Shown here: positions 1-33,502 of the stretch, in pieces
Position numbering within the stretch: the stretch's first letter is position 1
Layout: each line of letters begins with the position of its first letter
Assembly (NCBI RefSeq): GCF_000496735.2
Contig: NZ_AYLO01000162.1
Coordinates: 1 to 34,788, forward strand
Direction of reading: 5' to 3'
DNA: 34,788 nucleotides
From: Methyloglobulus morosus KoM1
Lineage (GTDB): Bacteria > Pseudomonadota > Gammaproteobacteria > Methylococcales > Methylomonadaceae
The notes under the pieces: model-generated
Database searches by the model: none
What the model was told of the DNA's origin: nothing
What the model saw: only the letters and a program-made list of their open reading frames with translations
Position numbers and translations under genes: made by a program

Positions 1-991
1 GCACTTCATCGGTACCTGTTTCGAAAGAGACTAATCGGTATGTTTTTGCTTGAAACTGTGATCGCTTTATATCATCAGTTTTTTTCAGGAAAGATTTAAT
101 TGTCTTGAATAATGATTGCGGCGGATTCATAAAATATAAATGCGTGCCTTCTACTTCCTGATAGTGAAAATACCCTTTAGTATAATTTTTCCATAATGAA
201 ATTCCTACAGGGTCTTTAATAAGCACATCGTTATTGGCTTGCAAGGCTAAAAGAGGACAAGTAAGCGCCGATTTACCATGCTCATGACTGTATGTTTTAA
301 TCAAGCCAAGATCACATTTGATCGCCTCATCAGGCATTGGTTTTACACCGGATTTTAAAGGGAGAATGATCTGGCTTTTCTCCAATATTTCACGGCAATC
401 CTGCATGGACATGTCGTTATCTATTTCATAAACAGGGGGCAACACTTTTAGGCGTTCAAAGACTTCTGGCGGAGAAACGGAGGATGGGATAAAGACTAAG
501 GGGGATAGCTGATGGTTTCGCTCAAGTTCAACCAAGGTTTCGTAAGCGATAATCCCCCCCATTGAATGTCCATACACAATAAATGGGGCATCACATAACT
601 GCACCATATGTTTTAGCAAATGGTCTATCAAGTGTCCCCAATCGGCTACATCGGAAGCCCCCATCAACCAAACTTCTAAATTCCCTTGCTGACTAAATGC
701 ATTTTTCCACGACCATGAAAGTGTTTCATTTCCAAAACCAAAGGGTAAAAATATAAACAACCGATACTCTGGATTATCAAGTTTATTGATACATTCGATT
801 TTCCTGTCGTCGTAGGCGACCTGATTCTGTAATGAAATTTTCTCTTCAATATCAAACATTGGAGAATCAGCCGATAGTTTATTTTTTCCGGCCTGTGAAT
901 TTATGAGATGCAGATATTTTTTTTCTGCTTCAACCTCAGAAAGCTCACCAACCAGCACCCTTTCCAACAATTTCTTGATTTGTTCGTTCAT
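1..991 (-). CDS. Type II-like thioesterase with N-terminal docking helices (partial, C-terminus off window)
   Basis: I translated this frame by hand; 330 residues are visible and the frame is still open at base 1. An alpha/beta-hydrolase thioesterase core covers about residues 75-305: nucleophile motif GHSMGG (Ser143), an acidic residue in QANNDV (Asp255) and EGTH (His284) form a plausible triad, as in RifR/GrsT-type thioesterases that release or edit chains on a PKS carrier domain. The first 30 residues (LLERVLVGELSEVEA) are not part of the hydrolase fold and resemble the helical docking motif of trans-AT synthases. The ATG overlaps the PKS stop as ATGA, so the two are translationally coupled. 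Residues after about 305 (RSQFQAKTYRLVSFETG) continue past the usual thioesterase end, so a further domain or a long tail may lie outside the window. Dedicated chain release or editing are both possible. Confidence 0.88.
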   Translation of the reverse strand, partial: MNEQIKKLLERVLVGELSEVEAEKKYLHLINSQAGKNKLSADSPMFDIEEKISLQNQVAYDDRKIECINKLDNPEYRLFIFLPFGFGNETLSWSWKNAFSQQGNLEVWLMGASDVADWGHLIDHLLKHMVQLCDAPFIVYGHSMGGIIAYETLVELERNHQLSPLVFIPSSVSPPEVFERLKVLPPVYEIDNDMSMQDCREILEKSQIILPLKSGVKPMPDEAIKCDLGLIKTYSHEHGKSALTCPLLALQANNDVLIKDPVGISLWKNYTKGYFHYQEVEGTHLYFMNPPQSLFKTIKSFLKKTDDIKRSQFQAKTYRLVSFETGTDEV

Positions 992-14799: not shown

Positions 14800-15555
14800 T
14801 CATTGAGCAGAGCTTTGACCGTTAGCAAACTTATGGAATTCGAAATAGCCCCAACTTAAACCTTTCCCCATTCAGGATGAGACACTTCACAATTGACTAC
14901 CAACCCCGTGCCAACAGGTTGATTTGGCCCTATTGATTGAAAATTAATAAAAATATCTTTCTTATGACCGCCGCGTTTAACTATGTAAACACCTTCAGCG
15001 GCAAAAACAGTCCCTGCGGGGACATGAGTGCCTTCAAATTCACCCCCTAAATCGAGACCGGCAGAATCCATAACGGCAACGATAAAGCCCCCTTCTAAGA
15101 TAGGAAATCCTTTGCTTGAATTATTCTCTTCCCCAGTCATCATAATTACCCGGTAATCCGTAGCCGGATCGGCTTCGAAGCCATTGAAAACCACCTTCGT
15201 ATCGGTAACGTCTATGCCAAAACGTTTAGAAAAAAACATAATTGCTGATTGACGTTTATTTTCGATTTGTTGATCGGTCAGGCCCAGCTCATTCTTAAAA
15301 AAGGACATTCCATTTCCGCCCATCAAACCATCCTTAAAAAAAAGTCCCATCAACCGAATCAAAGGGGCGGGTAGAACTAAAAGTCATCGCCTTGATCAGG
15401 TTGTCGGGGTCATGTTTATTTTGAGAATGTCCAAATTTTTCAAACTGAGATTCGTTATCGGCTGATACATTGAAAGAAAACACTAACAATGATGTCGCAA
15501 GCAACGTTAAAAGAGGTTTCATAATAGTTTTGATTGAAGGATATATTTTCGTCAT
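14800..15555 (-). pseudogene. Frameshifted paralogue of the downstream-facing secreted protein gene (unknown family)
   Basis: An AAGGA ribosome site precedes ATG 15555 and the product begins with a Sec-type signal (about residues 12-32, ending NVSA). The frame matches the neighbouring intact copy up to DSVDGTFF and then stops within a run of eight A on the plus strand (15336-15343, T8 in the message). Removing one T gives FFKDGLMGGNG, matching the paralogue's FFLDGLFGGDG. The frame then stays open to VSHPEWGKV, where adding one G at 14861-14862 restores GKGLSWGYFEFH, again matching the paralogue, and ends at TGA 14800-14802. With both corrections it would encode about 250 residues. It may be a decaying duplicate, a sequencing artefact, or a gene using slippage at T8. 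Confidence 0.75.
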
Positions 15556-15614
15556 ATAAAAAGTTCCTTTCTCACTTATTAAGTTGAAAATTTATATAGA
15601 AATGATTTCGGCAT

Positions 15615-15657
15615 AAAAACCCCGCCATTATTAATGAAAATAATAAATATGGCGGGG
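15615..15657 (-). terminator. Intrinsic terminator between the two paralogues
   Basis: Read on the minus strand, CCCCGCCAT pairs with ATGGCGGGG across an AT-rich interior (arms 15620-15628 and 15649-15657) and is followed directly by five U residues (15615-15619). It lies 40 bases after the stop of the intact secreted-protein gene, so that gene is probably a separate transcript from the broken copy beyond. Confidence 0.85.
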
Positions 15658-15696
15658 TCGTCTGTTCAATTTTGAAACAAAAGAGATATCTAATAC

Positions 15697-16494
15697 TTAT
15701 TTTTGTATCATTGTTTCTTCAATTCCAAGTCCAGGGAACGTCAGAACATTACGAACTTGGGAAGTAATTTGGCCATTTTTCAGGTTGTGGAATTCGAAAT
15801 AACCCCAACCCAAGCCTTTACCCCACACTGGATGGACAACTTCACAATTGATAACACCACCTGTACCAACAGGTTGCATCGGGCCTCTGGATTGGTAGTT
15901 TATGACGATGTCTTTACGTTCTTTACCGCGCTTAATAACATAGGTTCCTTCGGCAGCAAAAACAGTGCCGGCAGGTACATGAGTCCCCATAAATTCACCA
16001 CCTAAATCAAGTCCTGCAGGATCTGTTACAGCAACAGCAAATCCTCCATCAATAATGGGATAACCTTTACCTGGATTTTCTTCCCCTGTCATCATGATTA
16101 CCCGGTAATCCGCGCCCGGATCAATCTGGAAGCCTGTGAAATACACTTTTGGATTATTGACATCAATACCGAAGCGACTAGCATAAAAAGCAATTGCTGC
16201 ATTACGTTTTTGCTCAATTTGTTGATCAGTCAACCCAAGCACGTTCTTAAAAAAGCCCATGCCGTCACCACCAAACAAACCATCTAGGAAAAAAGTCCCA
16301 TCAACTGAATTAAATGGTCGCGTAGAAATGAAAGTCATCGCCTTGATCAGATTGTCAGGGTTGTTTTTGCCATGTGAATGGTTAGCGTGTTTATCAAAAG
16401 ATGATTCATCCAAAGCAGATGCGCTAAAAGATAATGCCATCATTAATGAGAAAAAAAATACTAAAAAAATATTTGTCAATCCTCTTTTTTCCAT
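15697..16494 (-). CDS. Secreted protein of unknown family, 265 aa
   Basis: I do not recognise this family. The N-terminus (MEKRGLTNIFLVFFFSLMMA) is a clear Sec signal, with cleavage plausible after SASA near residue 27. The mature part has a conserved block shared with the broken neighbour: GVD-type turns, YRVIMMTGEEN, GLDLGGEFxGTHVPAGTVFAAEGTY, a basic strand, then PVGTGxVINCEVxHPxWGK and a WGYFEFH strand. The alternation of polar and hydrophobic residues with many Gly turns suggests a beta-barrel or beta-sandwich, which is inference. There is one Cys in the mature part. The start is ATG 16494. Upstream lie AT-rich DNA and several dyads; downstream is a strong terminator. It could be a surface or periplasmic binding protein; no function is claimed. 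Confidence 0.8.
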   Translation of the reverse strand: MEKRGLTNIFLVFFFSLMMALSFSASALDESSFDKHANHSHGKNNPDNLIKAMTFISTRPFNSVDGTFFLDGLFGGDGMGFFKNVLGLTDQQIEQKRNAAIAFYASRFGIDVNNPKVYFTGFQIDPGADYRVIMMTGEENPGKGYPIIDGGFAVAVTDPAGLDLGGEFMGTHVPAGTVFAAEGTYVIKRGKERKDIVINYQSRGPMQPVGTGGVINCEVVHPVWGKGLGWGYFEFHNLKNGQITSQVRNVLTFPGLGIEETMIQK

Positions 16495-18322: not shown

Positions 18323-18889
18323 TTACATAAGATAACGTTTGAATGCGTAATCAATGCTCCATTTACCGGCACCACCAAACAGCAAAGGGAAAAACATTGT
18401 CAGAAAAATCAAGGGCAGTTTAAAATTACCAAAACCGGTGTCAGTGATAGCGTATCCTTGCCAAAAGTCAGACCAGTGCCGCAAGTCAGTAGGCCAATGC
18501 GCCACTTGGATCGCGACGATAGTTAAAATCATCAGCGCCAAAGAGAAAAACCGCGTCGCCAAGCCCAACGCCAAAGCAATCGAACCGATGATTTCAAGCC
18601 ACGTTGACATAATCCATAGTGATTCGCCTGATAGCAGGCTAAAAGGAAAAGGGAACACCATGTCGTTGAACCAGTTTTCGCCTTCATATTTCATGACCCC
18701 AGCCTCCCAAAATTCATACGCCAGGATAATGCGCAGCAAGAGTGGCGGCAATTGATCTGCTCCTCGGCTCAGGAACGTAGTGGTTTTTTGGTAGTCTGTG
18801 GCAACTTTTTTATAAATGTTATTGCATACACTGTTAGTGGCGCTGACGACTGAAGTTGATCTGGTTTTGTATGAGCTATTATCATTCAT
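18323..18889 (-). CDS. DoxX-family membrane protein of the metallophore operon (HvfD-type)
   Basis: The protein has 188 residues with about four hydrophobic helices: LPPLLLRIILAYEFWEAG, a central LEIIGSIALALGLATRFF, LALMILTIVAIQVA and PLIFLTMFFPLLFGGAG. The order and the GKWSIDY end are typical of the DoxX/DoxD family. DoxX proteins regularly accompany DUF692/DUF2063 metallophore operons; their exact role is not settled, with membrane redox or peptide handling suggested. An N-terminal extension of about 45 polar residues precedes the first helix. The ATG lies inside the end of the DUF2063 gene (8-bp overlap, 18882-18889), so it is translationally coupled. It is the last gene of the operon. 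Confidence 0.9.
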   Translation of the reverse strand: MNDNSSYKTRSTSVVSATNSVCNNIYKKVATDYQKTTTFLSRGADQLPPLLLRIILAYEFWEAGVMKYEGENWFNDMVFPFPFSLLSGESLWIMSTWLEIIGSIALALGLATRFFSLALMILTIVAIQVAHWPTDLRHWSDFWQGYAITDTGFGNFKLPLIFLTMFFPLLFGGAGKWSIDYAFKRYLM

Positions 18890-19694
18890 GGACTGTTCCC
18901 ACTATAATTTGCTGTTGTTTCAGGTTATTTAATATGTCACGACAAAATGTCAGGAATTGTACGTGATCGGAATGGCGCAATTCCAAAGCCAATTGTGTTG
19001 CGGCTTGTTCCCCCGTCCTGAAATTGTCCTGCAACAATTCGATTAAGCGCAATGTGGCGGGATTCGTCTCTATGAAATGGACGCCGTATTGTTCATCTCT
19101 CAAACCAATTAGGTGAGCGCTTTCTTCTTTATAATTAACGGTTTCCCATTCCTTCCAGTAAGTCCAGTTCTCATCTGATGGCATAATAGTTTGCACAGGA
19201 TAGTGATAATGTAACAAGTGCATCACCGGATTGAGTACTGGTATGGTTGCTAATAAGTCGGATGCGGCTGGTTTAGCAGCAATGGGGTTGTTTTGCGCAG
19301 TCTCCAACACCAATTCCATCCATTCAAAATGAGCCAATTCAGAGAAGAAGGCGGGCAAGGCCATGTCCGGCGTTTCATTGAGCAAATAATTGATGAACTC
19401 ATCTGGAATATCCCGGTATAGCGGCGATTCGCAGCAATGTTCTTTAATAAAGAGTTTGACCAATTGTTGCCATCGGTCAGATTCCAGCAATTCACGGCAA
19501 ACCGGGAAGCAAGCATCCAAGCTACCCTCAATCTTGTTGTACATCAGCTTGGCGTAAACACTGATGCGGGCGGGTAAAATAGCTGCTAAGGCTTCCGTTT
19601 CCACTGGATCGCGCAGATAATCGACAAATTTCCTTTGGTATCCAAAAAACTCGGGTTCGATGTTATGCAAGGCTAGCATTTCCGGTCGTGACAC
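18882..19694 (-). CDS. hvfC: DUF2063 partner of the MNIO enzyme (HvfC/BufC-type)
   Basis: The N-terminal half (residues 15-110) is a DUF2063 domain: YQRKFVDYLRDP, then ARISVYAKLMYNKIEGSLDACFPV, the usual helical region, and HFEWMELVLE near residue 130. The C-terminal half is the winged-helix-like HvfC region. In characterised systems this protein recruits the precursor peptide to the DUF692 enzyme and is needed for modification. The start is GTG 19694: an AGGAG ribosome site sits 6 bases upstream and overlaps the stop of the preceding gene; the in-frame ATG at residue 6 lacks such a site. It is 9 bases from hvfB and overlaps the DoxX gene. Confidence 0.92.
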   Translation of the reverse strand: MSRPEMLALHNIEPEFFGYQRKFVDYLRDPVETEALAAILPARISVYAKLMYNKIEGSLDACFPVCRELLESDRWQQLVKLFIKEHCCESPLYRDIPDEFINYLLNETPDMALPAFFSELAHFEWMELVLETAQNNPIAAKPAASDLLATIPVLNPVMHLLHYHYPVQTIMPSDENWTYWKEWETVNYKEESAHLIGLRDEQYGVHFIETNPATLRLIELLQDNFRTGEQAATQLALELRHSDHVQFLTFCRDILNNLKQQQIIVGTVHE

Positions 19695-19703
19695 AACTAA
19701 CTC

Positions 19704-20552
19704 CTACGCACTTTGTTGGACATGGCGGGTGTACCATAGATATTGTGATGTTTCAATTTGTTCGACTTCTTTAAGTAGGTCGGCTAAAGGAGGGATATTC
19801 ACATCCCGCTCAAGCAAAGTAGGGAACAAGCCGAATTGTTCGTAAGCCATTTCCAGCAATTGCCAGACTGGGTCAATCACGGCTTGTCCGTGAGAGTCGA
19901 TAATCAAATCGGGGCTGTCATGGTCATGACCCGCTACATGCCCATAGACAATGCGGTCTCCAGGAAGACCCAGCAGAAATTTGACCGGATCGTATCCGTG
20001 ATTAACGCTGTTTACGTAGATATTATTGACATCCAAGTGTAGCCAACAATCAGCTTCATCAAGTACAGCCCGAATAAAGGTCAATTCATCCATGTCTGCG
20101 ATGGGTGAAGAGACATAATATGAGGCATTTTCAATGGCAATACGCCGCTCTAAAATATCTTGGGTTTGCCTGATGCGTTGTGCGGTAAAGTACACAGCCT
20201 CTTCTGTAAACGGGATCGGGAACAGGTCGTACAAATGCCCACGATCAGCGCAGTAGCTCAAATGTTCGGTATATAGCCTAATCCGATGATCGGTTAAAAA
20301 CGACTTTATTCTCTTCAAAAAATCCAAATCTAGGGGGTCTGGACCGCCGATGGAAAGAGACAAGCCGTGGGCGACAAAAGGGTAACGCTCGGTAAACCAC
20401 CGGAAATCATTTGCTCGTTTACCCCCCAAGTCTATCCAATTTTCAGGTGAAACTTCAAAAAAACTAATGAGAGGTGGAACCCCGGCCATCAACGGGAGCA
20501 TAAGCTCCCGCCGAAGACCTAGCCCGGCTCCGTCAAGTTGGATTCTGGTCAT
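19704..20552 (-). CDS. hvfB: DUF692 multinuclear iron oxidase (MNIO) modifying the metallophore peptide
   Basis: This is a TIM-barrel DUF692 enzyme of 282 residues, the family of MbnB, TglH and HvfB/BufB. It uses an iron cluster and oxygen to oxidise cysteines of a precursor peptide into oxazolone/thioamide or thiooxazole groups. Candidate metal ligands visible in order are FFEVSPENW (E33), AHGLSLS (H62), TEHLSY (E96/H97), IENASYY (E141), LDVNN (D174), HVAGHDH (H205, H209, H211), DSHG (D219/H221) and LERD (E248), as expected for an active enzyme. The chosen start is ATG 20552, preceded by AAGGGA at a good distance and 19 bases after the precursor stop; an upstream in-frame ATG at 20621 would overlap the precursor gene and add non-family residues. 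Cytoplasmic. Confidence 0.94.
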   Translation of the reverse strand: MTRIQLDGAGLGLRRELMLPLMAGVPPLISFFEVSPENWIDLGGKRANDFRWFTERYPFVAHGLSLSIGGPDPLDLDFLKRIKSFLTDHRIRLYTEHLSYCADRGHLYDLFPIPFTEEAVYFTAQRIRQTQDILERRIAIENASYYVSSPIADMDELTFIRAVLDEADCWLHLDVNNIYVNSVNHGYDPVKFLLGLPGDRIVYGHVAGHDHDSPDLIIDSHGQAVIDPVWQLLEMAYEQFGLFPTLLERDVNIPPLADLLKEVEQIETSQYLWYTRHVQQSA

Positions 20553-20571
20553 GACGGGATTCCCTTGTCGC

Positions 20572-20907
20572 TTATTTTGCTTTGGCAGGTGCCGCTGGAG
20601 CCATGCTGCCGCTACAACCACCTTCCTTCATTTTCATTTTGTTGGCACCGCATTTACCTTCGCCACACTTGCCTTCTTTTGCTTTCCCAGCGGCAGCGTT
20701 GCAAGCACCTTCTTTCATCTTATTGCCACATTTGCCATCACTGGATTTGCCTTCAGCACTTTTGTCTGCTGTAACTTCGGCCATTTGTGTAGCAGTGGTG
20801 ACTTTTTGCAACGCAAACGGATTTTCTGTAGCTTGTGCCACCTGTGATGCCAATAAAGAAACGGCTATGGCACTACTTAAAGAAGTGATCAATTTTGTTT
20901 TATTCAT
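20572..20907 (-). CDS. hvfA: HvfA/bufferin-type RiPP metallophore precursor
   Basis: The precursor has 111 residues: a Sec signal (about 1-26, ending AQA), then ENPF, a feature of this group, then a Lys/Gly/Glu-rich tail. Five cysteines lie at 60, 69, 81, 86 and 98. Two are in exact EGKCG cores (78-82 and 83-87), one in DGKCG, and the others in EGACN and EGGCS. EGKCG is the motif whose Cys is oxidised by the adjacent MNIO enzyme in Haemophilus HvfA and Caulobacter bufferin, giving a copper-binding peptide that is exported and protects against excess copper. There is an AGGAAA ribosome site before ATG 20907. It leads the hvfABCD operon. The mature peptide would act in the periplasm. Confidence 0.92.
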   Translation of the reverse strand: MNKTKLITSLSSAIAVSLLASQVAQATENPFALQKVTTATQMAEVTADKSAEGKSSDGKCGNKMKEGACNAAAGKAKEGKCGEGKCGANKMKMKEGGCSGSMAPAAPAKAK

Positions 20908-21329: not shown

Positions 21330-22007
21330 ATGTCGGTTAAAAATAAAAATAGCAAAAAAAATCCGCCTAAGTCGGTGGTACTTGTCGATGATAAAGTCTT
21401 GTATCGGGAAGCCTTGGCTGGGCATCTCTCGAAACATTGCCTGAATGTAATTGGCGCATTTGGATTTCATGAGCTTGCATCAGATCCACTTAATGTCTTG
21501 CAACCAGATATTGTGTTGGGATCCCCTAATTTAAATGATGAAGGTGACATTCAACCCATCTTGTCATTGATAAAAGCTTCTAAAGAATGTCCGGTATTGC
21601 TTATCTCTCCGCCCTATTGTTCGAAACTCGTTTCAGAGCTAATCCATGCAGGTATTGCAGGGATTGTTTTGAAAACACAGCCTTTTAACATTTTACTTAA
21701 AGCAATAGAAAGGGTCATATCCAACGAGCTATGGTTTGATAGGGCCTTGATCACTTCCGTGCTTAAGAACTCAAGCTATCCAGGCCAATTTATGGTTAAC
21801 CAACATCATGGCCTGGGAAGTTTGTCAAAACGAGAAAGGGAGGTTGCCAACTTGGTAGCAAAAGGATTTAACACGGCATCTATTTCCAAAAAATTAAATA
21901 TATGTGAAAAAACTGTCCAGAATCATATTTATTCAATTTATGGAAAACTTGGGGTCAAAGATCGCCTCGAGTTGGCGAGGTTTGTCAGTGACAATGGCAA
22001 AGCTTAA
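21330..22007 (+). CDS. NarL/FixJ-type response regulator with a pseudo-receiver
   Basis: The protein has 225 residues. An N-terminal receiver-like domain (14-135) keeps the acidic pocket (VLVDD, D20/D21) and the conserved Lys (K115 in VLKTQP), but the phospho-acceptor position reads PDIVLGSPNLND: Ser65 stands where Asp is expected. The C-terminal LuxR helix-turn-helix (about 163-218, LSKREREVANLVAKGF and ISKKLNICEKTVQNHIYSIY) is intact. It is therefore probably not controlled by ordinary phosphorylation. No histidine kinase is nearby. It lies between, and diverges from, the metallophore operon, with the multicopper oxidase cluster downstream, so it is a candidate controller of either. The ATG has no clear ribosome site; no better start is in frame. 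Confidence 0.88.
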   Translation: MSVKNKNSKKNPPKSVVLVDDKVLYREALAGHLSKHCLNVIGAFGFHELASDPLNVLQPDIVLGSPNLNDEGDIQPILSLIKASKECPVLLISPPYCSKLVSELIHAGIAGIVLKTQPFNILLKAIERVISNELWFDRALITSVLKNSSYPGQFMVNQHHGLGSLSKREREVANLVAKGFNTASISKKLNICEKTVQNHIYSIYGKLGVKDRLELARFVSDNGKA

Positions 22008-22690: not shown

Positions 22691-24451
22691 ATGGCAACAA
22701 GACGTGAAGTATTAAAGTTAGGGGCGATTGGGACAGGTATAACTCTCCTTGCACCTAAACTCGGTATGGCCGACCTGGTTTTTCCAGATGGCTTTCGCCA
22801 AAGTATTTTAGATAATCCAAGCCCTCCAGTAACACCATTTGTTGTACCGTTGAATGTCATGCCGATTGCTAAGGCAGTGCGCGAGAGTTTTTTGACAACG
22901 CCAGAAGGTGGCGGCACACCCGTCGATCCCCATCGTCATCAGCGTTTTAACGAATTTAAGCCTAAAAAATTTTACGTCAACTATATCGAAGAATTTCTAT
23001 GGCAGTACCATACCGATCCGCCTTATAACACTGGATCTTGGGCTTGGGGTTTCCGTGAGCCGGGCATGAAAACAGGTATCACGCCTGGCTTAACCTTCCA
23101 TGCAAAATATGGCGAACCAGTTTTTTTACGCCGTATAAACAACCTACCGCCTGTGGGTTCAGCGAATGTAGGTTTTGCGCTCCCAAGCACAACGATCCAT
23201 TTACATAATGGACATACAGCATCTGAAAGTGACGGCATTCCGCAAGATTTCTTCAATCCGGGTGAGCATTGGGATCATCATTACGCCAATTTTCCGGCCG
23301 GTTTTGATGAGCGTGAAATCATGACAACGCTCTGGTATCACGACCACCGTGAAAATTTTACTGCGCCAAATGTTTATGCAGGCTTGAATGGTTTTTATCT
23401 GCTTTTCGATGAAAAAGATGCTAATGATGAAACCAAATTAGGTACATTTCGTTTACCTAGTGGCAAATATGATGTTCCTCTCATTCTTCATGACTGCCAG
23501 TTTGATCAGAACGGACAGCCGGTATGGGATTTTTCCGATCCTACACCGACAACGGATCCGGCAACTGGTGAATATATCGGCAGTGAAATGTATACAACGT
23601 TCGGCATGTTGGGCGACCGTTTCACTGTTAACCGAATCATCCAGCCTTATTTCAAGGTCGAAGCACGTAAATACCGTTTCCGTGTCCTTAATGGTGGGCC
23701 GTCTAGGCTCTATCAACTGTACTTACAAAAAGAAGGTACCCCGGATAAATTTGATCCATTAGTTGTAATTTCTACAGATGGTAATCTGTTACCTGCACCA
23801 ATTGTAGCTGACCATATCAGGCTAGGTGTTGCCCAACGGCATGATATTATTATTGATTTTTCAAAATATCAGCCCGGCGACCAAATCTATCTGGTTAACC
23901 GGATGGAAATGCGCAGCGATGGAGCAGGTTGGTCCGGTAGGTTACTGGATCAAGGCGACCAAATCATGCGTTTCGACGTAATCGCGGCAACCGGCCCCGA
24001 CCCTAGTCGCATCCCTGCGAAAATGCGTGAACTTCCAGAAATTAGAATGGATAAAGTCAGAAGAGAACGGTTATTCGTTTTTGATTATGACAATGGCTTG
24101 TGGACCATCAATGGAAAATTATTTGATCCCAATCGCTCTGACGCGCTGATAGAACAAGGCAGCGCCGAAATCTGGACGTTCAGGAATGCCGGTGATTCCT
24201 GGATGCATCCTATCCATACCCATTTTGAAGAGTTCCAAATACTGGAAATTAACGGCAGACCGTTAGGTAAGGATGATGTTGATCGGGCCAGAAAAGACGT
24301 AATTATGCTTGGGCCAAACGAAGAGGTTAAATTTTACTCACGCTGGCGGGATTTCTTGGGCAAACATGTTATGCACTGCCACAATGTGGTTCATGAAGAT
24401 CATGCAATGATGATTCGGTGGGATATTGTTCCACCTGGGCAAGGCGATTAA
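22691..24451 (+). CDS. Tat-exported multicopper oxidase
   Basis: All four copper motifs are present (numbered from ATG 22691): HLHNGH (H170, H172), WYHDH (H217, H219), HPIHTH (506-511) and HCHNVVHEDHAM (562-573), which supply the trinuclear site plus the type 1 Cys563, His568 and Met573. It should therefore oxidise a substrate or metal ion and reduce oxygen to water. The N-terminus TRREVLKLG followed by a hydrophobic stretch is a twin-arginine signal, so it is exported folded with copper. The start is ATG 22691 with AGAGGAAG 6 bases upstream; a longer frame from 22652 adds residues before the Tat motif and lacks a ribosome site. The three-domain form resembles CotA/CueO-type oxidases; the natural substrate (Cu(I), Mn(II), Fe(II) or an organic) cannot be told. 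First gene of a likely operon with the next two. Confidence 0.95.
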   Translation: MATRREVLKLGAIGTGITLLAPKLGMADLVFPDGFRQSILDNPSPPVTPFVVPLNVMPIAKAVRESFLTTPEGGGTPVDPHRHQRFNEFKPKKFYVNYIEEFLWQYHTDPPYNTGSWAWGFREPGMKTGITPGLTFHAKYGEPVFLRRINNLPPVGSANVGFALPSTTIHLHNGHTASESDGIPQDFFNPGEHWDHHYANFPAGFDEREIMTTLWYHDHRENFTAPNVYAGLNGFYLLFDEKDANDETKLGTFRLPSGKYDVPLILHDCQFDQNGQPVWDFSDPTPTTDPATGEYIGSEMYTTFGMLGDRFTVNRIIQPYFKVEARKYRFRVLNGGPSRLYQLYLQKEGTPDKFDPLVVISTDGNLLPAPIVADHIRLGVAQRHDIIIDFSKYQPGDQIYLVNRMEMRSDGAGWSGRLLDQGDQIMRFDVIAATGPDPSRIPAKMRELPEIRMDKVRRERLFVFDYDNGLWTINGKLFDPNRSDALIEQGSAEIWTFRNAGDSWMHPIHTHFEEFQILEINGRPLGKDDVDRARKDVIMLGPNEEVKFYSRWRDFLGKHVMHCHNVVHEDHAMMIRWDIVPPGQGD

Positions 24452-24495
24452 AACGTCCTTTTACTCACTGAATTTGACAAGATATAGAGGTAGTT

Positions 24496-25164
24496 ATGAA
24501 CAATAAAAACCAAGACGTTTCAGCCCGGAATTCCAAAATGGGACTTAGAAAGTTGTTAGCGAAAGCTTTTTTACCACCACCTACCCAGGGGAGGGGGGGT
24601 AACCAGTTTCCTGAAGCTGTAGTTACTTCACACAACGGTAAAACCTATCGTTTTTACAGCGACTTAATTCGCGATAAAGTGGTGGTCGTGCATTTTATGA
24701 CCCTGGATAGCCAACAGCATTTTCCTTCATTGGCCCATCTTTCGCAGTTAGCCCAGCAGTTTTGGGATGAATTAGGTGAGAAGGTCAATCTGTATTCGAT
24801 CACCACCGATCCAGTACGGGATACCTCAGAAAGGCTCGCTGCTTATGCTGAAGTTCACGGTATTCCTGCAGGCTGGCATTTAATCCGTCCCTCAGAGAAC
24901 GATGTAAAAACGATCAGTAGTCGGTTTGCTAGACATTTACCCCAGCATCAACCGAAAGAAGGCTTTGATTTACGGATGGTACATTGCGGGAATGCCAAAA
25001 CAGGCATTTGGAGCGCTTTTGCCGCCGACGCGGAATCGGGCAAATCAGCAATGCGCGTGAGCGGATTGTACGGAGGTAGCCGTCCGAATGGTGAGCTTAG
25101 GCGTGCCGGCCCTGTGCTACTGAGCGAACAGCACAGAGACAAAACCAGCAACCGTGATGTGTAA
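24496..25164 (+). CDS. SCO/thioredoxin-fold protein lacking the CxxxC copper site
   Basis: The protein has 222 residues with the SCO fold pattern: FPEAVVTSHNGKTYRFYSDL, KVVVVHFMT, a peptide where CxxxCP should be, VNLYSITTDPVRDT, and MVHCGN near the C-terminal end. The motif reads SQQHFP (Ser72 and Phe76 instead of the two Cys), so normal copper transfer or disulphide chemistry is lost. The SCO His is retained (H163) and followed by Cys164. No signal peptide or membrane helix is evident, unlike ordinary SCO proteins, although residues 15-30 are amphipathic. It lies 44 bases after the oxidase gene with ribosome site AGAGG. A structural or regulatory role is possible; assignment to the SCO family rests on pattern only. 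Confidence 0.78.
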   Translation: MNNKNQDVSARNSKMGLRKLLAKAFLPPPTQGRGGNQFPEAVVTSHNGKTYRFYSDLIRDKVVVVHFMTLDSQQHFPSLAHLSQLAQQFWDELGEKVNLYSITTDPVRDTSERLAAYAEVHGIPAGWHLIRPSENDVKTISSRFARHLPQHQPKEGFDLRMVHCGNAKTGIWSAFAADAESGKSAMRVSGLYGGSRPNGELRRAGPVLLSEQHRDKTSNRDV

Positions 25165-25222
25165 TTATCTCCAGGCTACTAGCACTGGAGTTCCAGAAGT
25201 ATTTGAGGAACGGAGTTAAATT

Positions 25223-26827
25223 ATGATAAAGCAAAAATTTCGATACGGCCGTTTGCTATTTGCCATAACGGCTTCTTTGGGCGGAATTGCAGTTGCAAAC
25301 GCTGCCTGTGTACCTGTTAAGCCAAGGCCACCAGCACCTGCAGTGACGATTTCACCGGACGGCAAGACGACAACCGTAATAACCCCAGAGGGTGCATTTC
25401 CTCCACAGGACCCTTTTCTCCATCCGCCAGGAAGCAATCATCTACCAACAATCTATGAAAATTATTGTGATGGCAACGGTGTTGAAATCCTGAATACAGT
25501 CCCTTCGACACCCGAGCATCCTTACAATTTGCACCCGGATCCTGTTGTTTCGGAGATTGATAAAGCCTCTCCATCGGATGACTTAATCACCGCTTTCAAA
25601 CAGCTCACGAAAAAACCGGTTGACAAAGCAGCTATACAAAGGGCTATCGATATTCTGGAAGGCAACCCGATACCGGGCAGAAATTACAGCGGTCTCCCTG
25701 TACTCCACTATAAAGGCCCGGAAAAGGTGAAGGTTGTCACTCCAACTTTTGATAGCAATGGCATCAAAACTGGTGGGATAGTCGATATACACCAAATCTG
25801 GTACGGTGACCATATCGAATCGGATACGGCTTTTGTCGATCCTTCAGCTGTGTTGGACGTGCCATGGACTATCCGTTATACCGTCGACACCCTCAACCAG
25901 GGACACGAGGATTTTGCACCGATGGTCATGTACTTCGACGATCCGGCTCTGAGTCCTCCGGGGTCGCCCCCAATGCCCAATGTTATGTTTGACCAAACAT
26001 TTTTCCCTATGAACGATGGCACGCGTACCGTCTATGAAATCGCGATGGGGCAAGGGAAATATTACAATTTGAGTTATCATTGGGGTTGGCGCAAACACCC
26101 ACCAAGAGTACAGGTAACCGAAAACGCAAGAAAAAAAATTGGCGGTGTAAGTTTGCCTGAATTCGAAAGTAACGTTTTTGGCCCTCATCCATCCGCAAGT
26201 GAAGCTGAAAAGCTAGCGGCTATCGCCAAAATTGGCGATCTTGCGCCTGAAAAGCGGATGTGGAATACCCTGCAGGTTGCTAAGGCTAATGGTAGGGCAT
26301 CCGTATCTGATATTGTGGCGTTAAACCGTGCGTTTGACCAATGGCAAAATCGGAATAAACTACCGGATGGTGTGAAACTTGATCCAGATAGCGATTGGAC
26401 TTTATTTTTTGTTAACAATACCATTTACGGTGAAATTAAAGGCAACACGATTGGTGGGCATACCGAATACGATGGTTGGACGACCAGGGGTAAAACGGTC
26501 AAAATCAAACTCCTCAATGGCGACCATTTTGACCACGCCTACTTCAATATAGATTTTGGTGGCCGACGCGGTTGGGAAAACACCTTCCAATCCACCAAGG
26601 CAATTGGTGGGGCCGGTCAATGGTTTACTTTTGGTCGAGCTAACTGGTGGGTTAATGCAGGATTCCCTGTTATGATAATCACACCTCCTGCAACGGGTAC
26701 CGGTGCGAGTACAGTCGTGGGCGAACATAATGTTGTATTGACTATGAATTTCGAACCTTCCAGGCGTATCCGCTGGTATCAATTCGATCCATTCCATCAC
26801 GATACAGCGGTATGGTCGATTCATTAA
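25223..26827 (+). CDS. Exported protein of unknown family, 534 aa, in the multicopper oxidase operon
   Basis: I do not recognise this family. It has a Sec signal (about 1-28, ending VANA) followed at once by a Cys and a Pro-rich linker. The mature part is rich in His and aromatic residues: VDIHQIWYGDHIESDT, QGHEDFAPMVMYFDD, YHWGWRKHPPR, LLNGDHFDHAYFNIDFGG, EHNVVLTMNFEP and a C-terminus DPFHHDTAVWSIH. Several beta-strand-like segments suggest an extracytoplasmic beta-rich fold. Clustered His suggests metal binding, which is inference. Ribosome site GGAG before ATG 25223; 58 bases after the SCO-like gene. It is probably a partner or substrate-binding component of the oxidase. Confidence 0.85.
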   Translation: MIKQKFRYGRLLFAITASLGGIAVANAACVPVKPRPPAPAVTISPDGKTTTVITPEGAFPPQDPFLHPPGSNHLPTIYENYCDGNGVEILNTVPSTPEHPYNLHPDPVVSEIDKASPSDDLITAFKQLTKKPVDKAAIQRAIDILEGNPIPGRNYSGLPVLHYKGPEKVKVVTPTFDSNGIKTGGIVDIHQIWYGDHIESDTAFVDPSAVLDVPWTIRYTVDTLNQGHEDFAPMVMYFDDPALSPPGSPPMPNVMFDQTFFPMNDGTRTVYEIAMGQGKYYNLSYHWGWRKHPPRVQVTENARKKIGGVSLPEFESNVFGPHPSASEAEKLAAIAKIGDLAPEKRMWNTLQVAKANGRASVSDIVALNRAFDQWQNRNKLPDGVKLDPDSDWTLFFVNNTIYGEIKGNTIGGHTEYDGWTTRGKTVKIKLLNGDHFDHAYFNIDFGGRRGWENTFQSTKAIGGAGQWFTFGRANWWVNAGFPVMIITPPATGTGASTVVGEHNVVLTMNFEPSRRIRWYQFDPFHHDTAVWSIH

Positions 26828-26850
26828 CTAAATAAACTGCACTAAATTGT

Positions 26851-26987
26851 GGGTAAGCTGCACCGTTGTCGTGTAGTTTGCTACACAGGAAATGTCACGG
26901 ATGGCTTTTTTGGTAAGTTAGATTTAGGAACGAGGGTAAGCGGCGATTTGTTGTATGCTGCTTACCTTTTTTTATGGCGTGGTGGCG
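26851..26987 (+). promoter_or_regulatory. Leader with repeated GGTAAG elements before the SCO gene (possible attenuator)
   Basis: GGGTAAGCTGC (26851-26861) and GGGTAAGCGGC (26934-26944) are direct copies with one difference; a third GGTAAG is at 26912-26917. The arm GCTGCTTACC (26957-26966) can pair with either long copy. A separate hairpin GTGTAG-TTTG-CTACAC lies between (26871-26886). Because the last pairing makes a terminator, competition between copies could switch read-through. This is inference from complementarity alone. Confidence 0.4.
26935..26973 (+). terminator. Intrinsic terminator ending 14 bases before the SCO start
   Basis: GGTAAGCGGC (26935-26944) pairs with GCTGCTTACC (26957-26966) over 10 bp with one G-U pair and is followed by T7 (26967-26973). 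It would end the oxidase operon transcript, yet the SCO start codon lies at 26988, leaving no space for a promoter in between. Confidence 0.82.
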
Positions 26988-27677
26988 ATGAATTCACGAT
27001 ATAAGCAGTATTTGGTAATCGGTTTATTACTTTTATTTAAAGAACAAGCGTTTGCTGGGTATTTGCCGATGGCGGAATCGTCCGCCTCAACCAACCCAAC
27101 AGCAAATATATATTCGACAGCACAAACAGGCGGGGAGGGCAAAAATTCTTCGTTATATAGTTATAAAAACAGCCAAGCTACTTACGACATTCCTAGTGTG
27201 CAACTGCTCGATAAGGACAGCAAGAATATTGATTTCCGCAAATTGATCGATTACGGCGGTCCAGTCATGGTTCAGTTCGTTTTCGCAACTTGTTCTACGG
27301 TGTGTCCTATATTGAGCGCTTGTTTTTCCAGCGCCCAACCAGAACTCGAAAAGTTATCGGGTGGTTCATACCGCTTAGTTTCCATATCCATAGACCCCGA
27401 ACAAGATACACCGGAAAGGTTGACCGAATACGCCCAACGCTTTAAGGCCGGAAAAAACTGGTATTTCCTGACTGGTAGCCAGGGCGATATTGCAGCCGTG
27501 TTAAAAGCATTTTCTGCCACATACCAAAGCAATAATAAAATGTACCACCAGTCACTTACTTTGATGCGTCCACGGAAGGATTCAAATTGGACAAGAATTG
27601 AAGGATTGCTGGGCAAACAAGATTTCATCATGGAATATAAAAAAATGACTGGGTTGTCCAGCCAGGTTAAGAAATAA
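26988..27677 (+). CDS. SCO1/SenC-type copper chaperone
   Basis: The protein has 229 residues. It has an N-terminal signal or anchor (MNSRYKQYLVIGLLLLFKEQAFA), then the thioredoxin-like SCO domain with the copper-binding CSTVCP motif (C102, C106) and the conserved His (H187 in YHQSL), all intact. SCO proteins hold Cu and deliver it to oxidases (classically the CuA site) or reduce target cysteines in the periplasm. The start at 26988 is preferred: an in-frame ATG at 26955 lies inside the preceding terminator hairpin and precedes a worse signal. The ribosome site is weak (GGTGG). The cytochrome gene follows after 51 bases. Together they likely supply copper to, or exchange electrons with, the cluster's oxidase. 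Confidence 0.92.
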   Translation: MNSRYKQYLVIGLLLLFKEQAFAGYLPMAESSASTNPTANIYSTAQTGGEGKNSSLYSYKNSQATYDIPSVQLLDKDSKNIDFRKLIDYGGPVMVQFVFATCSTVCPILSACFSSAQPELEKLSGGSYRLVSISIDPEQDTPERLTEYAQRFKAGKNWYFLTGSQGDIAAVLKAFSATYQSNNKMYHQSLTLMRPRKDSNWTRIEGLLGKQDFIMEYKKMTGLSSQVKK

Positions 27678-27728
27678 TCAGTCGATGGCCTACCGCTCTA
27701 TTTTTCTGAATGGATAGAAAAAACTAAC

Positions 27729-29462
27729 ATGGTTTCCAGATCAACGGATAAGTCACCAACCAGAAATCGCAGGTTATTCGCTGCTTTTATGTTTTTATTG
27801 CTGCTTGTTGGCTTATGGGTAGGGCAGCGGACTTATCATTTTTTTCCTTTCGATAAGAGTAAGATAGGCGAACAAATTTACACGCTGGGCATTACCTCGT
27901 CCGGCGATCCGCTGGAAGGTCGGACTGAAGGTGACATTGAGTTTACCGATGCCCACTTTAATTGCGCCCAATGCCACCGCCATAGTGGTTATGGCTCCAG
28001 CGAAGGTGGCAACTTTGTGATGCCGATAACAAGCTCAAGCCTTTTTAACCCAAGGTCTTACAGCCGTACTGACCTTTTTAAAAAATTATTTACTGAAAGC
28101 CAATCTAAGCAGTTTTGGGCGCGAATGCGTTCTGCATATCAACGTCCCGCCTATACCGATGTATCGTTAGCCGCAGCCATCCGCGAGGGTATCGATCCAT
28201 CGGGTCGGAAACTGAGCCCTTTGATGCCCCGCTACAAAATGAACGACACTGACATGGCGGGATTGGTTAGTTATTTAAAAAAACTTTCTTCACAAAACGA
28301 TCCGGGCGTGGACGAGCATTCGCTTTATTTCGCGACGGTGGTCAGCAAGGATGCCAACGTCGATGATAAAAACGCCATGTTATCGACGATCACAAAGTTT
28401 TTCGAGTGGTTGAATTTGGCAACCAAAGGCAACCTGGATCACCCGAATTATTCAATGAATTATCGCTCTGACTTTCTTAAGTCGTTTCGAAACTGGGAAC
28501 ACAACACCTGGGAACTGTCCGAAAACCCTGATGAATGGCCTAAAGAACTGGCGGCCTATTATGAAAAAAAACCGGTGTTTGCACTTGTGGGCGGAATGGT
28601 AAAAGGCGATTGGACACCGATACATAAGTTTTGCGAAAAAAACCGCATCCCTTGTCTCTTTCCCATAACCGATTTGCCCGCCAACGAACAAGCCAGCCAT
28701 TACTCGATCTACTTTAATGAAGGGCTTCGATTGGAAGCAAAAACGATTGCCCAGTATCTTTCAAAAGATGATGTGTTGACAGAGCCAAGATCGATAGTGC
28801 AATTCTATTCGGATGAGGCGCAAGGGGAGATTCCAGCGAAGGTTCTTGAACAAGGTCTTGGCGCTAAAAAGGGAATCGTAACCGGAAGTATCCGTTTAAC
28901 AAACTTGGAAAATTTTCGCCAGGAATTATCCAATTATTTACAAAAGTATCCTCAAACCGACACCATTGTTGTCTGGCCTGGTACATTGGACGATGTCATC
29001 ATGACTGAACTCGAATCGCAAACAGGGTCAATCAAACGGGTTTTCCTGCCTTCGGCACTGGTGCCATCAAACCTGGATAAGTTTTCAGAAGATTTAATTC
29101 AGAAGCTGTATTTCAGTTATCCTTATGACCTGCCTTCGGTCTACCACCCCCATGCTTTTAGGGCAAGGGCATGGATGGACACCCGAAAGATACCTTGGAT
29201 CAATCCTAGGATCCAGCTTAATACGTATTACGCATTGTATCTATTGGAATATGGCGTTGAACATGTCGTAGAACATTTTTCGCGGGATTATTTAATCGAA
29301 TTTCTTGAGCATGAAGCGGAAGCTTCGATAAATCCTGGCGTATTCCCTCGTTTAAGTCTGGGACCTGAACAACGATTTGCCTCTAAAGGGGCTTATATAG
29401 TGCAACTGGAAAGTTCAGGAGAACAATTAATCAAACCTGTAAGTTCTTGGATTGTTCCCTAA
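27729..29462 (+). CDS. Membrane-anchored cytochrome c fused to a periplasmic-binding-protein-like domain
   Basis: The protein has 577 residues: a membrane anchor (16-33), a monohaem cytochrome c domain (about 45-190) with haem motif CAQCH (C79, C82, H83) and a likely axial Met in LMPRYKM (M166 or M171), then a domain of about 370 residues (195-565) with Rossmann-like halves: KPVFALVGGMVKGDWTPIHKFCEKNRIPCLFP, SIVQFYSDEAQGEIPAKVLEQGL and DTIVVWPGTLDDVIM. This pattern is that of type I periplasmic binding proteins of the branched-chain amino acid (LivJ-like) class. No transporter genes are nearby, so ligand sensing or docking of an electron partner is more likely than uptake. It faces the periplasm and closes the cluster. 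Confidence 0.88.
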   Translation: MVSRSTDKSPTRNRRLFAAFMFLLLLVGLWVGQRTYHFFPFDKSKIGEQIYTLGITSSGDPLEGRTEGDIEFTDAHFNCAQCHRHSGYGSSEGGNFVMPITSSSLFNPRSYSRTDLFKKLFTESQSKQFWARMRSAYQRPAYTDVSLAAAIREGIDPSGRKLSPLMPRYKMNDTDMAGLVSYLKKLSSQNDPGVDEHSLYFATVVSKDANVDDKNAMLSTITKFFEWLNLATKGNLDHPNYSMNYRSDFLKSFRNWEHNTWELSENPDEWPKELAAYYEKKPVFALVGGMVKGDWTPIHKFCEKNRIPCLFPITDLPANEQASHYSIYFNEGLRLEAKTIAQYLSKDDVLTEPRSIVQFYSDEAQGEIPAKVLEQGLGAKKGIVTGSIRLTNLENFRQELSNYLQKYPQTDTIVVWPGTLDDVIMTELESQTGSIKRVFLPSALVPSNLDKFSEDLIQKLYFSYPYDLPSVYHPHAFRARAWMDTRKIPWINPRIQLNTYYALYLLEYGVEHVVEHFSRDYLIEFLEHEAEASINPGVFPRLSLGPEQRFASKGAYIVQLESSGEQLIKPVSSWIVP

Positions 29463-32252: not shown

Positions 32253-32761
32253 CGATGCTTCTGTTTGGTCGGTTTCTCACTATGCGTAATTTATTCTAGG
32301 CTAGAAGACATAGCCAAGCATTAGATCCGCGATAATCGATATAACGATTTTCAATACATGTAACCCTATGAAGCAACAACGCCAGGAAAAACGTAAACCT
32401 ATGGGTGTCGCCGCTGTATCCTACTCTGCTAAGTATACCTATAACCACCATTACTTAAATCATTGTAGTCATGGTCAAACCCCCTATTGCTCGAAGCGTC
32501 ATTTGTTAGGCTGTAAGCCATCATGAATAAACCCGAACTCAATGCGATAAGAATCATCGTGCGCTAAACAACTAGAAAGTATAATTTTTATTTCCTGCTC
32601 AGTGCCAGTCATTGCGCCGGAACCAAGGCGGAAGCGGCCAGCCATGTACAACCAAGGGACATCCAGCAAATGATACCAATCATTCAAATGTCGGTTCCTA
32701 TATCTGTAAGGAAAGAAGGGGTTATGCGACTAATCCATATACGTTTATTTTAGAGCAAAAT
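32253..32761. other. Intergenic region containing a possible small minus-strand gene
   Basis: About 510 bases between the methyltransferase and the DUF547 gene. The only frame with protein-like composition is the 62-codon minus-strand ORF listed next. A plus-strand frame from 32368 lacks a ribosome site and looks like chance. No terminator or dyad stands out. Confidence 0.5.
32499..32687 (-). CDS. Possible small protein of 62 aa, unknown family
   Basis: The product begins MNDWYHLLDVPWLYMAGRF and continues with RLGSGAMTG, CLAHDDSYRIEFGF and a C-terminal GLQPNK. The amino-acid make-up and codon choice look like a real protein rather than chance. A weak AGGAA lies about 12 bases upstream of the ATG. 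It diverges from the DUF547 gene. I do not recognise it; it could also be the end of a broken longer gene. Confidence 0.35.
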   Translation of the reverse strand: MNDWYHLLDVPWLYMAGRFRLGSGAMTGTEQEIKIILSSCLAHDDSYRIEFGFIHDGLQPNK

Positions 32762-33502
32762 ATGAAGCAAAAGATTACCTTGTTGGGTATTATGATGCTG
32801 TTTTTGTCGGGCAATACACTTGCTTTAGAACCAGACTGGTCTTCTTACAAGGCGGTTTTAGGTCATGTCAAACCCGGGTCGAAAAACGGCGCTCCTCTAA
32901 TGCTAATGGATTATACGGCCATCAAGTCCGATGGCAGTCTTGATAAAGCTTACCTGGAACTTTCGGCTTTTAAACTGGGACGCTTGGCCAGCCGTGAAGA
33001 GAAACTGGCTTTTCTACATCAATGCCTACAATATCCTGGCATTGAAAATGGTCGCGGATCATATGCCTATTGAAAGTATAAAGGATGTTGGAAATTTGCT
33101 CAGTCCCGTATGGGATAAACTTGCAGGAGAACTAGGCGGACAAGAGGTAACGCTTGGGGAAATTGAGCTCAAAATCCTGCGCCCGATGGGGATCCACGAA
33201 TTCATTTTGCGATTATCTGTGCCTCTGTAAGCTGTCCAGACCTTCGTAATGAACCTTACACGGCGATTCAACTCAATAAGCAGTTGGACGAACAAGCCAA
33301 GAACTTTTTGGGCAACGCGGAAAAGGGTCTGAAAATCGAAAAAGATTCGCTTCGCGTTTCGCAAATCTTCGATTGGTTTGAAAAAGATTTTGCCGTCAAA
33401 GGTGGTATTAAAGCGTTTATTAAAAACTACAAACCCGATGCACCTGACTTAAATATCAAAGCCAATTTGCCTTATGATTGGGACGTTAATGGGTTGAATT
33501 AA
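32762..33502 (+). pseudogene. DUF547 protein gene with two compensating frameshifts
   Basis: From ATG 32762 there is a signal peptide (MKQKITLLGIMMLFLSGNTLA) and then DWSSYKAVLGHVKPGSK, typical of exported DUF547 proteins. After EEKLAF an extra T in TTTT (33010-33013) throws the frame off and it stops at 33071-33073; in the +1 frame the conserved FYINAYNILALKMVADH, WDKLAGELGG and EIELKILRPMG continue. A missing G in GGGG (33188-33191) then needs correction to give GDPRIHFAIICASVSCPDLR, after which the original frame resumes to TAA 33502. Corrected, it would be about 246 residues, a normal length. It may be a recent pseudogene or a sequencing error. DUF547 genes accompany arsenosugar and sulfur-related clusters; their function is unknown. 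Confidence 0.82.

Follow-up and report, generated by a model that had tools for sequence, protein, structure and literature searches.

An ioxABCDE gene cluster in Methyloglobulus morosus KoM1 that probably encodes an extracytoplasmic iodide oxidase

Contig NZ_AYLO01000162.1 of Methyloglobulus morosus KoM1 (RefSeq assembly GCF_000496735.2), the 34,788-nucleotide stretch analysed here and called the window, carries five genes that, judged from sequence, constitute a homologue of the iox cluster of iodide-oxidising bacteria. Inspection of the open reading frames (ORFs) and their translations reveals that all five genes lie on the forward strand with gaps of 44, 58, 160 and 51 bp. The first, ioxA (22691..24451, +), codes for a 586-residue multicopper oxidase with a twin-arginine translocation (Tat) type signal. 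It is followed by ioxB (24496..25164, +), encoding a 222-residue SCO-family protein with neither a CxxxC motif nor an obvious signal peptide; ioxC (25223..26827, +), a 534-residue protein with a signal-like N-terminus, modelled with weak scores as cupredoxin-like; ioxD (26988..27677, +), a canonical SCO protein of 229 residues with CxxxC and a distal histidine; and ioxE (27729..29462, +), a 577-residue membrane-anchored cytochrome c fused to a type-I periplasmic-binding-protein domain. The same A-B-C-D-E order is seen in Iodidimonas muriae (locus L060; L numbers denote loci and G numbers genomes) and in Roseovarius sp. A-2 (L100), to whose proteins those of the window are respectively 59 and 63% (IoxA), 28 and 29% (IoxB), 50 and 47% (IoxC), 40 and 36% (IoxD) and 37 and 41% (IoxE) identical. 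Given that both gene order and identities match these two loci, the sequences identify the window cluster as ioxABCDE and its 534-residue product as IoxC. A preliminary description of this DNA had rightly recognized a five-gene extracytoplasmic oxidase cluster, without noting that the cluster is already known as ioxABCDEF (PMC9415286, in its accessible sections).

According to the accessible sections of two papers, the iodide-oxidising enzyme (IOX) has been obtained in purified form from Iodidimonas sp. Q-1 and investigated in Roseovarius sp. A-2 as well, with IoxA, the multicopper oxidase, and IoxC present in both (PMC9415286). It is extracellular, needs O2, contains copper and zinc, and comprises at least IoxA and IoxC, no haem subunit being named in those sections (PMC9415286, PMC5928188); added copper raises its production (PMC5928188). 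Iodidimonas genomes encode ioxABCDEF, with IoxB, IoxD and IoxF as SCO1/SenC proteins, and the functions of IoxC and IoxE are called unclear (PMC9415286). A review, as far as its text was accessible, ascribes a role to a similar oxidase in the terrestrial Rhodanobacter denitrificans (PMC10643221). The window and the I. muriae locus, a relative of that of the purified Q-1 enzyme, thus share the order of the five genes, SCO1/SenC proteins at positions B and D, a Tat-type multicopper oxidase and the IoxC partner, at identities of 28-59%. They differ in that the window has no adjacent ioxF, shows no gsp gene among its named ORFs, and belongs to a gammaproteobacterial, most likely methanotrophic, host. 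A single GspE match over cut-off (668.2 versus 630.25 bits) is found on another contig of the host genome. The Roseovarius A-2 locus has the same five genes in the same order in an alphaproteobacterial host.

To examine the extent of this association, an alignment of five IoxC copies was used for a pattern-based scan of GTDB species genomes, from which the best 80 of 91 relatives, representing 79 distinct loci, were compared; genes in these loci were called by homology matches on six-frame ORFs. Alignments drew on 58 of 62 non-redundant references for IoxC (without L018, L019, L021 and L055), 34 of 35 for IoxE (without L018) and 20 of 47 for IoxA. Counts omit L018 and L020, which lie on the same contigs as L043 and L096, respectively, and L027, an identical twin of L026. 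Seven of 14 added regions (L137, L139, L140, L141, L143, L144 and L145) duplicate loci that already had a name and do not enter the CusBA counts or the IoxC tree discussed below. Among the 83 IoxC copies, 19 have less than 2.8 kb of upstream sequence and 11 less than 2.6 kb downstream. Of the 64 copies with at least 2.8 kb upstream, 63 are preceded on their own strand by an IoxA-type oxidase no more than 3 kb away and 61 by IoxB, the exceptions being L034 and L055 (IoxB not found) and L054 (neither IoxA nor IoxB). Where the downstream sequence reaches 2.6 kb or more (72 copies), both IoxD and IoxE are found there in 44, with the fusion alone detected in two more. IoxA, IoxB and IoxC are therefore nearly always together, and IoxD and IoxE come and go as a pair. 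The record titles of the iox loci name Pseudomonadota, Acidobacteriota, Nitrospirota and Planctomycetota, though many are metagenome-assembled genomes (MAGs) and some placements may be binning errors. Because the same order recurs in loci titled under several phyla, the arrangement is far beyond chance. The question of co-occurrence raised by the preliminary description is hence answered in favour of the ABC core across genomes and not of all five families as a fixed set. Two loci carry duplications: that of Ferruginivarius sediminum (L051, 7274-20216) has two tandem iox sets, one with D and E and the other an ABC set near the end of the stretch, and that of a gammaproteobacterial MAG (L072, 4257-13756) has two tandem ABC sets followed by CusBA.

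Phylogenetic analysis places the window with the known iodide oxidisers. In an IoxC tree of 82 rows (quick IQ-TREE, midpoint root) it falls within a 45-row side, supported by an SH-like approximate likelihood ratio test (SH-aLRT) value of 99, along with Iodidimonas and Roseovarius A-2; this side comprises 41 five-gene copies and four on cut contigs. With cut copies left out, the five-gene versus three-gene state changes only twice on the tree. Between the two lineages sits a mixed, mostly acidobacterial group of eight five-gene and two three-gene rows, the root being arbitrary. The IoxA tree (66 rows, without a CotA or CueO outgroup) likewise places the window, together with I. muriae and Roseovarius A-2, within a 35-row side with SH-aLRT 99; of its rows 32 are five-gene and the other three (L024, L025 and L097) are on contigs ending too soon. 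The lineages also differ in their neighbours. Among the 25 copies lacking the IoxE fusion and having at least 5 kb of downstream sequence, CusB is found in 15, CusA in 14 and neither in 10, as against CusBA efflux genes in none of 42 five-gene copies. Pfam searches recover CusB/HlyD and AcrB-type pump components beside ABC copies; the CusB of L092 also has a domain that binds heavy metals.

This linkage is one of the grounds for an alternative in which IoxA and IoxC serve copper detoxification, oxidizing periplasmic Cu(I) in a CueO-like manner along with a copper-binding HvfA peptide, and iodide oxidation is a side activity. We regard it as unlikely, since the window sits in the CusBA-free lineage, together with Iodidimonas and Roseovarius A-2. 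The ABC branch includes the Nitrosomonadaceae loci, in which IoxC occurs throughout and IoxA and IoxB in L021, L082 and L086 (L085 is cut before them). Their A, B and C genes stand in order as in the window, and, unlike in the window, CusBA takes the place of D and E in the three loci with enough sequence (L082, L085 and L021, the last of which lies beside L086 on the tree); L086 itself is too short downstream for CusBA to be read. For the Nitrosomonas homologues of IoxA and IoxC, the accessible part of PMC12335899 notes the operon as unknown and leaves its presence open. As the two lineages predict different functions, they offer a direct test of whether these homologues in ammonia oxidisers are iodide oxidases.

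IoxA of the window matches Pfam Cu-oxidase_2 (E 1.6e-17). Its Tat arginines, R4 and R5, are kept in the readable members of the 73 aligned, as are, in all readable members, the copper ligands H170, H172, H217, H219, H506, H509, H511, H562, C563, H564, H568 and M573, with all four copper-binding regions present; the complete Tat-exported multicopper oxidase of the preliminary description is thereby borne out. The domains and ligands are shared with CotA, bilirubin oxidase and CueO, from which IoxA is set apart by its dedicated IoxC partner and by scores far under the NCBIfam cut-offs for the CueO equivalog (132.9 bits; cut-off 525) and PhsA (168.6; cut-off 950). The same CueO score, along with one for copper_res_A that is likewise far under its cut-off (25.4 bits; cut-off 478.95), argues against the copper-detoxification alternative. 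A further alternative is a laccase-like enzyme or Mn(II)/Fe(II) oxidase whose substrates would be phenolics, humics or metals, the binding-protein domain of IoxE taking up an aromatic ligand. It would fit the observations that bilirubin oxidase and CotA are the closest solved structures by sequence, that some structural matches of IoxE have hydroxybenzoate ligands (4ey3 and 4evs), and that, in the accessible sections of PMC9415286, the Q-1 enzyme oxidises 2,2'-azino-bis(3-ethylbenzothiazoline-6-sulfonic acid) (ABTS), syringaldazine and other phenolics. We consider such an enzyme quite improbable, as both IoxC and the DE pair track the lineage to which the known iodide oxidisers belong.

In a set of 369 genomes of the host class, scored with at most three candidates per genome, the IoxA profile reaches at least 690 bits in exactly five genomes, the same five that encode IoxC. 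Twelve further genomes match at 206-525 bits; in the best of these (G082, 524.5 bits), the one of the twelve whose surroundings were read, an IoxA-like oxidase and an IoxB-like protein occur at 5826-8270 of locus L135 without IoxC, a case that falls outside the iox family. By eye, this IoxB-like protein retains two cysteines where the motif would be, and from its sequence G082 is a possible outgroup for the loss of the IoxB copper site. In Methylocystis sp. KS32 (L037, 8579-8992), ioxA was found as one short open-frame piece, and the gene may be broken or misassembled there.

No Pfam family matches IoxC of the window, a PDB profile search matched none of 177635 sequences, phmmer and NCBIfam gave chance-level matches only, and the plasmid records searched contained no relative. 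A marginal match to GLEYA (E 0.0074), present in just one of 58 relatives, was rejected. The absence of a sequence family agrees with the preliminary description, which called it an exported, His-rich protein of no family; its 18 histidines amount to 3.4%, only mildly rich (3.9% in the multicopper oxidase), its export signal is judged by eye, and the protein itself is known. A model built from 58 sequences has a mean predicted local distance difference test (pLDDT) score of 90.1. Its best Foldseek matches are multicopper oxidases, with Fet3p at E 2.8e-5 and a TM-score of only 0.14. By VIA-align, residues 102-303 superpose on cupredoxins of the CuA and rusticyanin kinds (highest Z 5.1, for a CuA domain, with a root-mean-square deviation (rmsd) of 3.1 and 118 aligned), residues 163-534 on oxidases of the CueO type (highest Z 4.5, rmsd 8.4) and residues 389-534 on copper nitrite reductase (Z 3.4, 98 aligned), values to be read against the Z of 7-8 typical of unmatched models. 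Given that these Z-scores lie below that level and that the profile comparison with IoxA shows nothing, the cupredoxin-like character suggested by the model is a lead and not a result; as the hhalign probability with IoxA is 14.7%, we do not claim that IoxC and multicopper oxidases share an ancestor. H292, H525, H526 and the C-terminal H534 are kept in all readable copies and are candidate metal ligands.

The two SCO-family proteins of the cluster differ markedly. IoxD (Pfam SCO1-SenC, E 7.6e-19) has the features of a canonical SCO1, as the preliminary description had stated: numbered on the ORF opening at 26955, C113 and C117 are conserved in 47/47 and H198 in 49/49 readable aligned members, and CxxxC is found in 45 of 47 unaligned members. 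The start methionine at 26988 is conserved in 44/45. IoxB matches the same family only slightly over cut-off (26.1 versus 22.8 bits, E 8.9e-6) and lacks the CxxxC of canonical SCO1 proteins. The protein is not devoid of cysteine, as had been supposed, and has a single one, Cys164, at a position where one in 71 aligned members has cysteine. Absence of the motif is the rule in the family: CxxxC occurs anywhere in just three of 68 IoxB members (L038, L093 and L098, its position in L098 not being clearly that of the motif), leaving 65 without it. An RRx[FLM] motif lies near the start in 47 of 68 IoxB frames, whose start sites were not checked individually. In the window copy the N-terminal hydrophobicity maximum is 0.40, and a clearly hydrophobic signal is likewise absent from the IoxB of Methylobacter luteus, M. 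marinus, Methylomonas sp. WSC-6, I. muriae and Ferruginivarius; in these six copies the 15-residue maximum is 0.15-0.75, versus about 1.4-2.2 in most others. Since IoxB of the window shows no signal of its own, it may be carried out together with IoxA, one possible reason for signal-less IoxB.

IoxE combines Cytochrom_C (78-186) and Peripla_BP_6 (277-564) domains, both over the Pfam cut-off, confirming the fusion seen previously, behind a modelled N-terminal helix (11-36). The CxxCH haem-binding residues C79, C82 and H83 are present in 42/42 and the axial M166 in 48/48 readable members. Its C-terminal part shares the fold of LivK-type periplasmic binding proteins (best Foldseek E 1.4e-14), from which IoxE differs in its cytochrome c fusion and in having no permease or ATPase gene among the flanking genes searched against Pfam. 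More broadly, no transporter or terminal oxidase is encoded among ORFs of at least 90 residues at about 20.9-30.1 kb (ORF list and Pfam), as had been noted before. The preliminary description proposed that electrons pass from a bound small ligand or metal through haem to the multicopper oxidase; in such a relay IoxE would bind the ligand and IoxC would bridge the two proteins. The invariant CxxCH and axial methionine, the well-matched binding-protein fold and the joint travel of D and E with ABC speak for such a relay; against it, active IOX is reported to contain IoxA and IoxC (accessible sections of PMC9415286), and the three-gene relatives have no IoxE at all. A haem relay is thus possible but not needed, and we hold it to be quite improbable as the function of the cluster.

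The host genome (4.14 Mb in 183 contigs) has three genes of PF02461, the AMO family of methane/ammonia monooxygenase subunit A, which includes that of the particulate methane monooxygenase. Given these genes and a family shared with the genomes of the M. luteus and M. marinus loci, both of which have the complete set of five iox genes, the host is most likely methanotrophic. Divergent from ioxA on the reverse strand is an hvfX-hvfC-hvfB-hvfA set (18323..20907, -), the genes of a copper-binding oxazolone/thioamide metallophore of the ribosomally synthesised and post-translationally modified peptide (RiPP) class, which further distinguishes the window from the Iodidimonas locus. HvfX, HvfC and HvfB all exceed their NCBIfam equivalog cut-offs (118.3/80, 225.2/142 and 405.8/360 bits); the precursor exceeds that of the KCGExKCG domain (27.9/19.5 bits) and falls under that of the HvfA equivalog (27.3/95). 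Three further HvfB-type genes lie elsewhere in the host genome. In G909, hvfABCX follows ioxE on the same strand. Across 12 of the 14 IoxC-bearing genomes of the family (the fragment genomes G774 and G795 being left out), an hvfB-type gene is within about 10 kb of iox in four: G000, G909 and G838 (five-gene) and G908 (three-gene). About 0.16 would be expected by chance at 1-4 hvfB-type genes per genome, giving a Poisson P of about 3e-5, which is post hoc and optimistic as the genomes are related. An hvfB-type gene is found in seven of 99 loci, one of them a repeat; the six distinct ones are all methanotroph loci, two of them from Methylocystis, and none was found in the Roseovarius A-2 locus. 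The link between hvf and iox is therefore confined to a minority of iox loci, mostly of methanotrophs, in both lineages. Its presence in the window and near iox in several other methanotroph loci is a further point for the copper-detoxification alternative, as is the large amount of copper that methanotrophs handle; the hvf genes may be a copper-handling neighbour of iox. In L032, a locus from a Methylobacter MAG, an hvfA-like precursor (326-691, -) sits at the edge of the contig, with the ABC set about 5 kb away; its maturase would lie outside the contig.

Upstream of ioxA is a gene for a LuxR-type response regulator (21330..22007, +; GerE E 1e-17), possibly a regulator of iox. In L023, L024, L136 and L138 a relative precedes ioxA in the same orientation, and in L022 one follows ioxE at a distance of about 6 kb; the Roseovarius A-2 locus yielded none. 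By eye, the window protein has serine at the usual phospho-acceptor position (PDIVLGS), and the M. luteus relative (L022) keeps aspartate.

In light of these observations, we propose that the window cluster is orthologous to that for IOX and that IoxA and IoxC probably form an extracytoplasmic, iodide-oxidising and O2-reducing complex. The activity of an IoxA/IoxC enzyme comes from papers on relatives; from it, and from the homology, gene order, phylogeny, motifs and models of the window cluster, we infer the substrate in M. morosus and the roles of IoxB, IoxD and IoxE. The complex would oxidise iodide to I2 or HOI, with its trinuclear copper site reducing O2 to water. IoxD would supply copper, in keeping with the role assigned to this SCO protein in the preliminary description, and IoxB, an SCO relative without copper-binding cysteines, would most likely be a folding or assembly factor. 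IoxE most likely serves copper reduction or loading, or senses a ligand.

Several points weigh against this proposal. At 59-63% identity to its closest characterised relatives, IoxA may have changed substrate, and the Q-1 enzyme oxidises phenolics as well. A copper role, too, would agree with the copper genes linked to iox, which are hvf here and CusBA in the ABC lineage. The third SCO1/SenC gene, ioxF, is not next to the cluster, and no third SCO match occurs in the window; three further PF02630 genes elsewhere in the host genome are family-level matches only. With the window SCO as query, ioxF was likewise not found in the Roseovarius A-2 locus, and a second SCO match after the cluster occurs only in L060 and L063, so we do not treat ioxF as defining. 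The distribution is also sparse: of eight genomes in the genus, one has IoxC, namely the host; in the family it occurs in 14 of 201 genomes from 11 of 29 genera, counting the host and two genomes with fragments; and samples of the class and phylum give five of 369 (host included) and three of 398, respectively. iox is thus a patchy, accessory trait in the host family. Finally, among the papers found there is no report of a methanotroph that oxidises iodide.

Neither iox in methanotrophs nor a CusBA-linked iox lineage is reported among the literature matches listed. In the accessible main text of a survey from 2025 that covers 97 Methylobacter genomes and MAGs (PMC12810054), a term search found no occurrence of iodide, iodine or multicopper; the accessible sections of PMC9415286 mention IoxA relatives in Gammaproteobacteria and Nitrospirae. 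Relative to the literature found, the new elements are iox in methanotrophs, the ABCDE and ABC lineages with Nitrosomonas in the latter, and copper-RiPP genes near iox in several methanotrophs. The weakly scoring cupredoxin-like model of IoxC with its conserved histidines was not seen in the papers found. The same holds for an IoxB mostly without the SCO copper motif and an IoxE that is a cytochrome/binding-protein fusion, though no search was aimed at these alone and part may be in print. These observations extend the host range of iox to methanotrophs of two classes (Methylobacter and Methylocystis by record name) and to loci titled Acidobacteriota, and provide concrete motif and structure hypotheses for IoxB and for the two proteins whose functions were called unclear, IoxC and IoxE.

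The cluster suggests that some methanotrophs, presumably including M. morosus, may oxidise iodide and take part in the iodine cycle. More tentatively, and with considerable doubt, aerobic methanotrophs might be unrecognised iodide oxidisers that draw copper from their own systems, including hvf-type RiPPs near iox, and make I2 or HOI as a chemical weapon where methane and iodide meet, for example in natural-gas brines. On this view, two branches would have arisen from an older oxidase module of two subunits, the ABC core: an iodide branch equipped with DE, and a branch for metal defence, equipped with CusBA, that holds the 'iodide oxidase' homologues of Nitrosomonas. If true, this would tie methane oxidation to the iodine cycle, in which the identity of the iodide-oxidising microbes matters for seawater iodate renewal, radioiodine mobility and iodine emissions.

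Promoter- and terminator-like sites are not commoner than in shuffled sequence, and a reading of the five genes as mere unrelated neighbours was rejected on the grounds of synteny. A polyketide-synthase-like megasynthase of 4526 residues, recognized by eye, occupies 988-14568 (-) and is followed by two tandem similar proteins at 14856-16494 with no NCBIfam match. At 32612-33230 (+) lies a gene that we take to be DUF547-like, which appears split over two overlapping frames, as a result of either a frameshift or a draft error.

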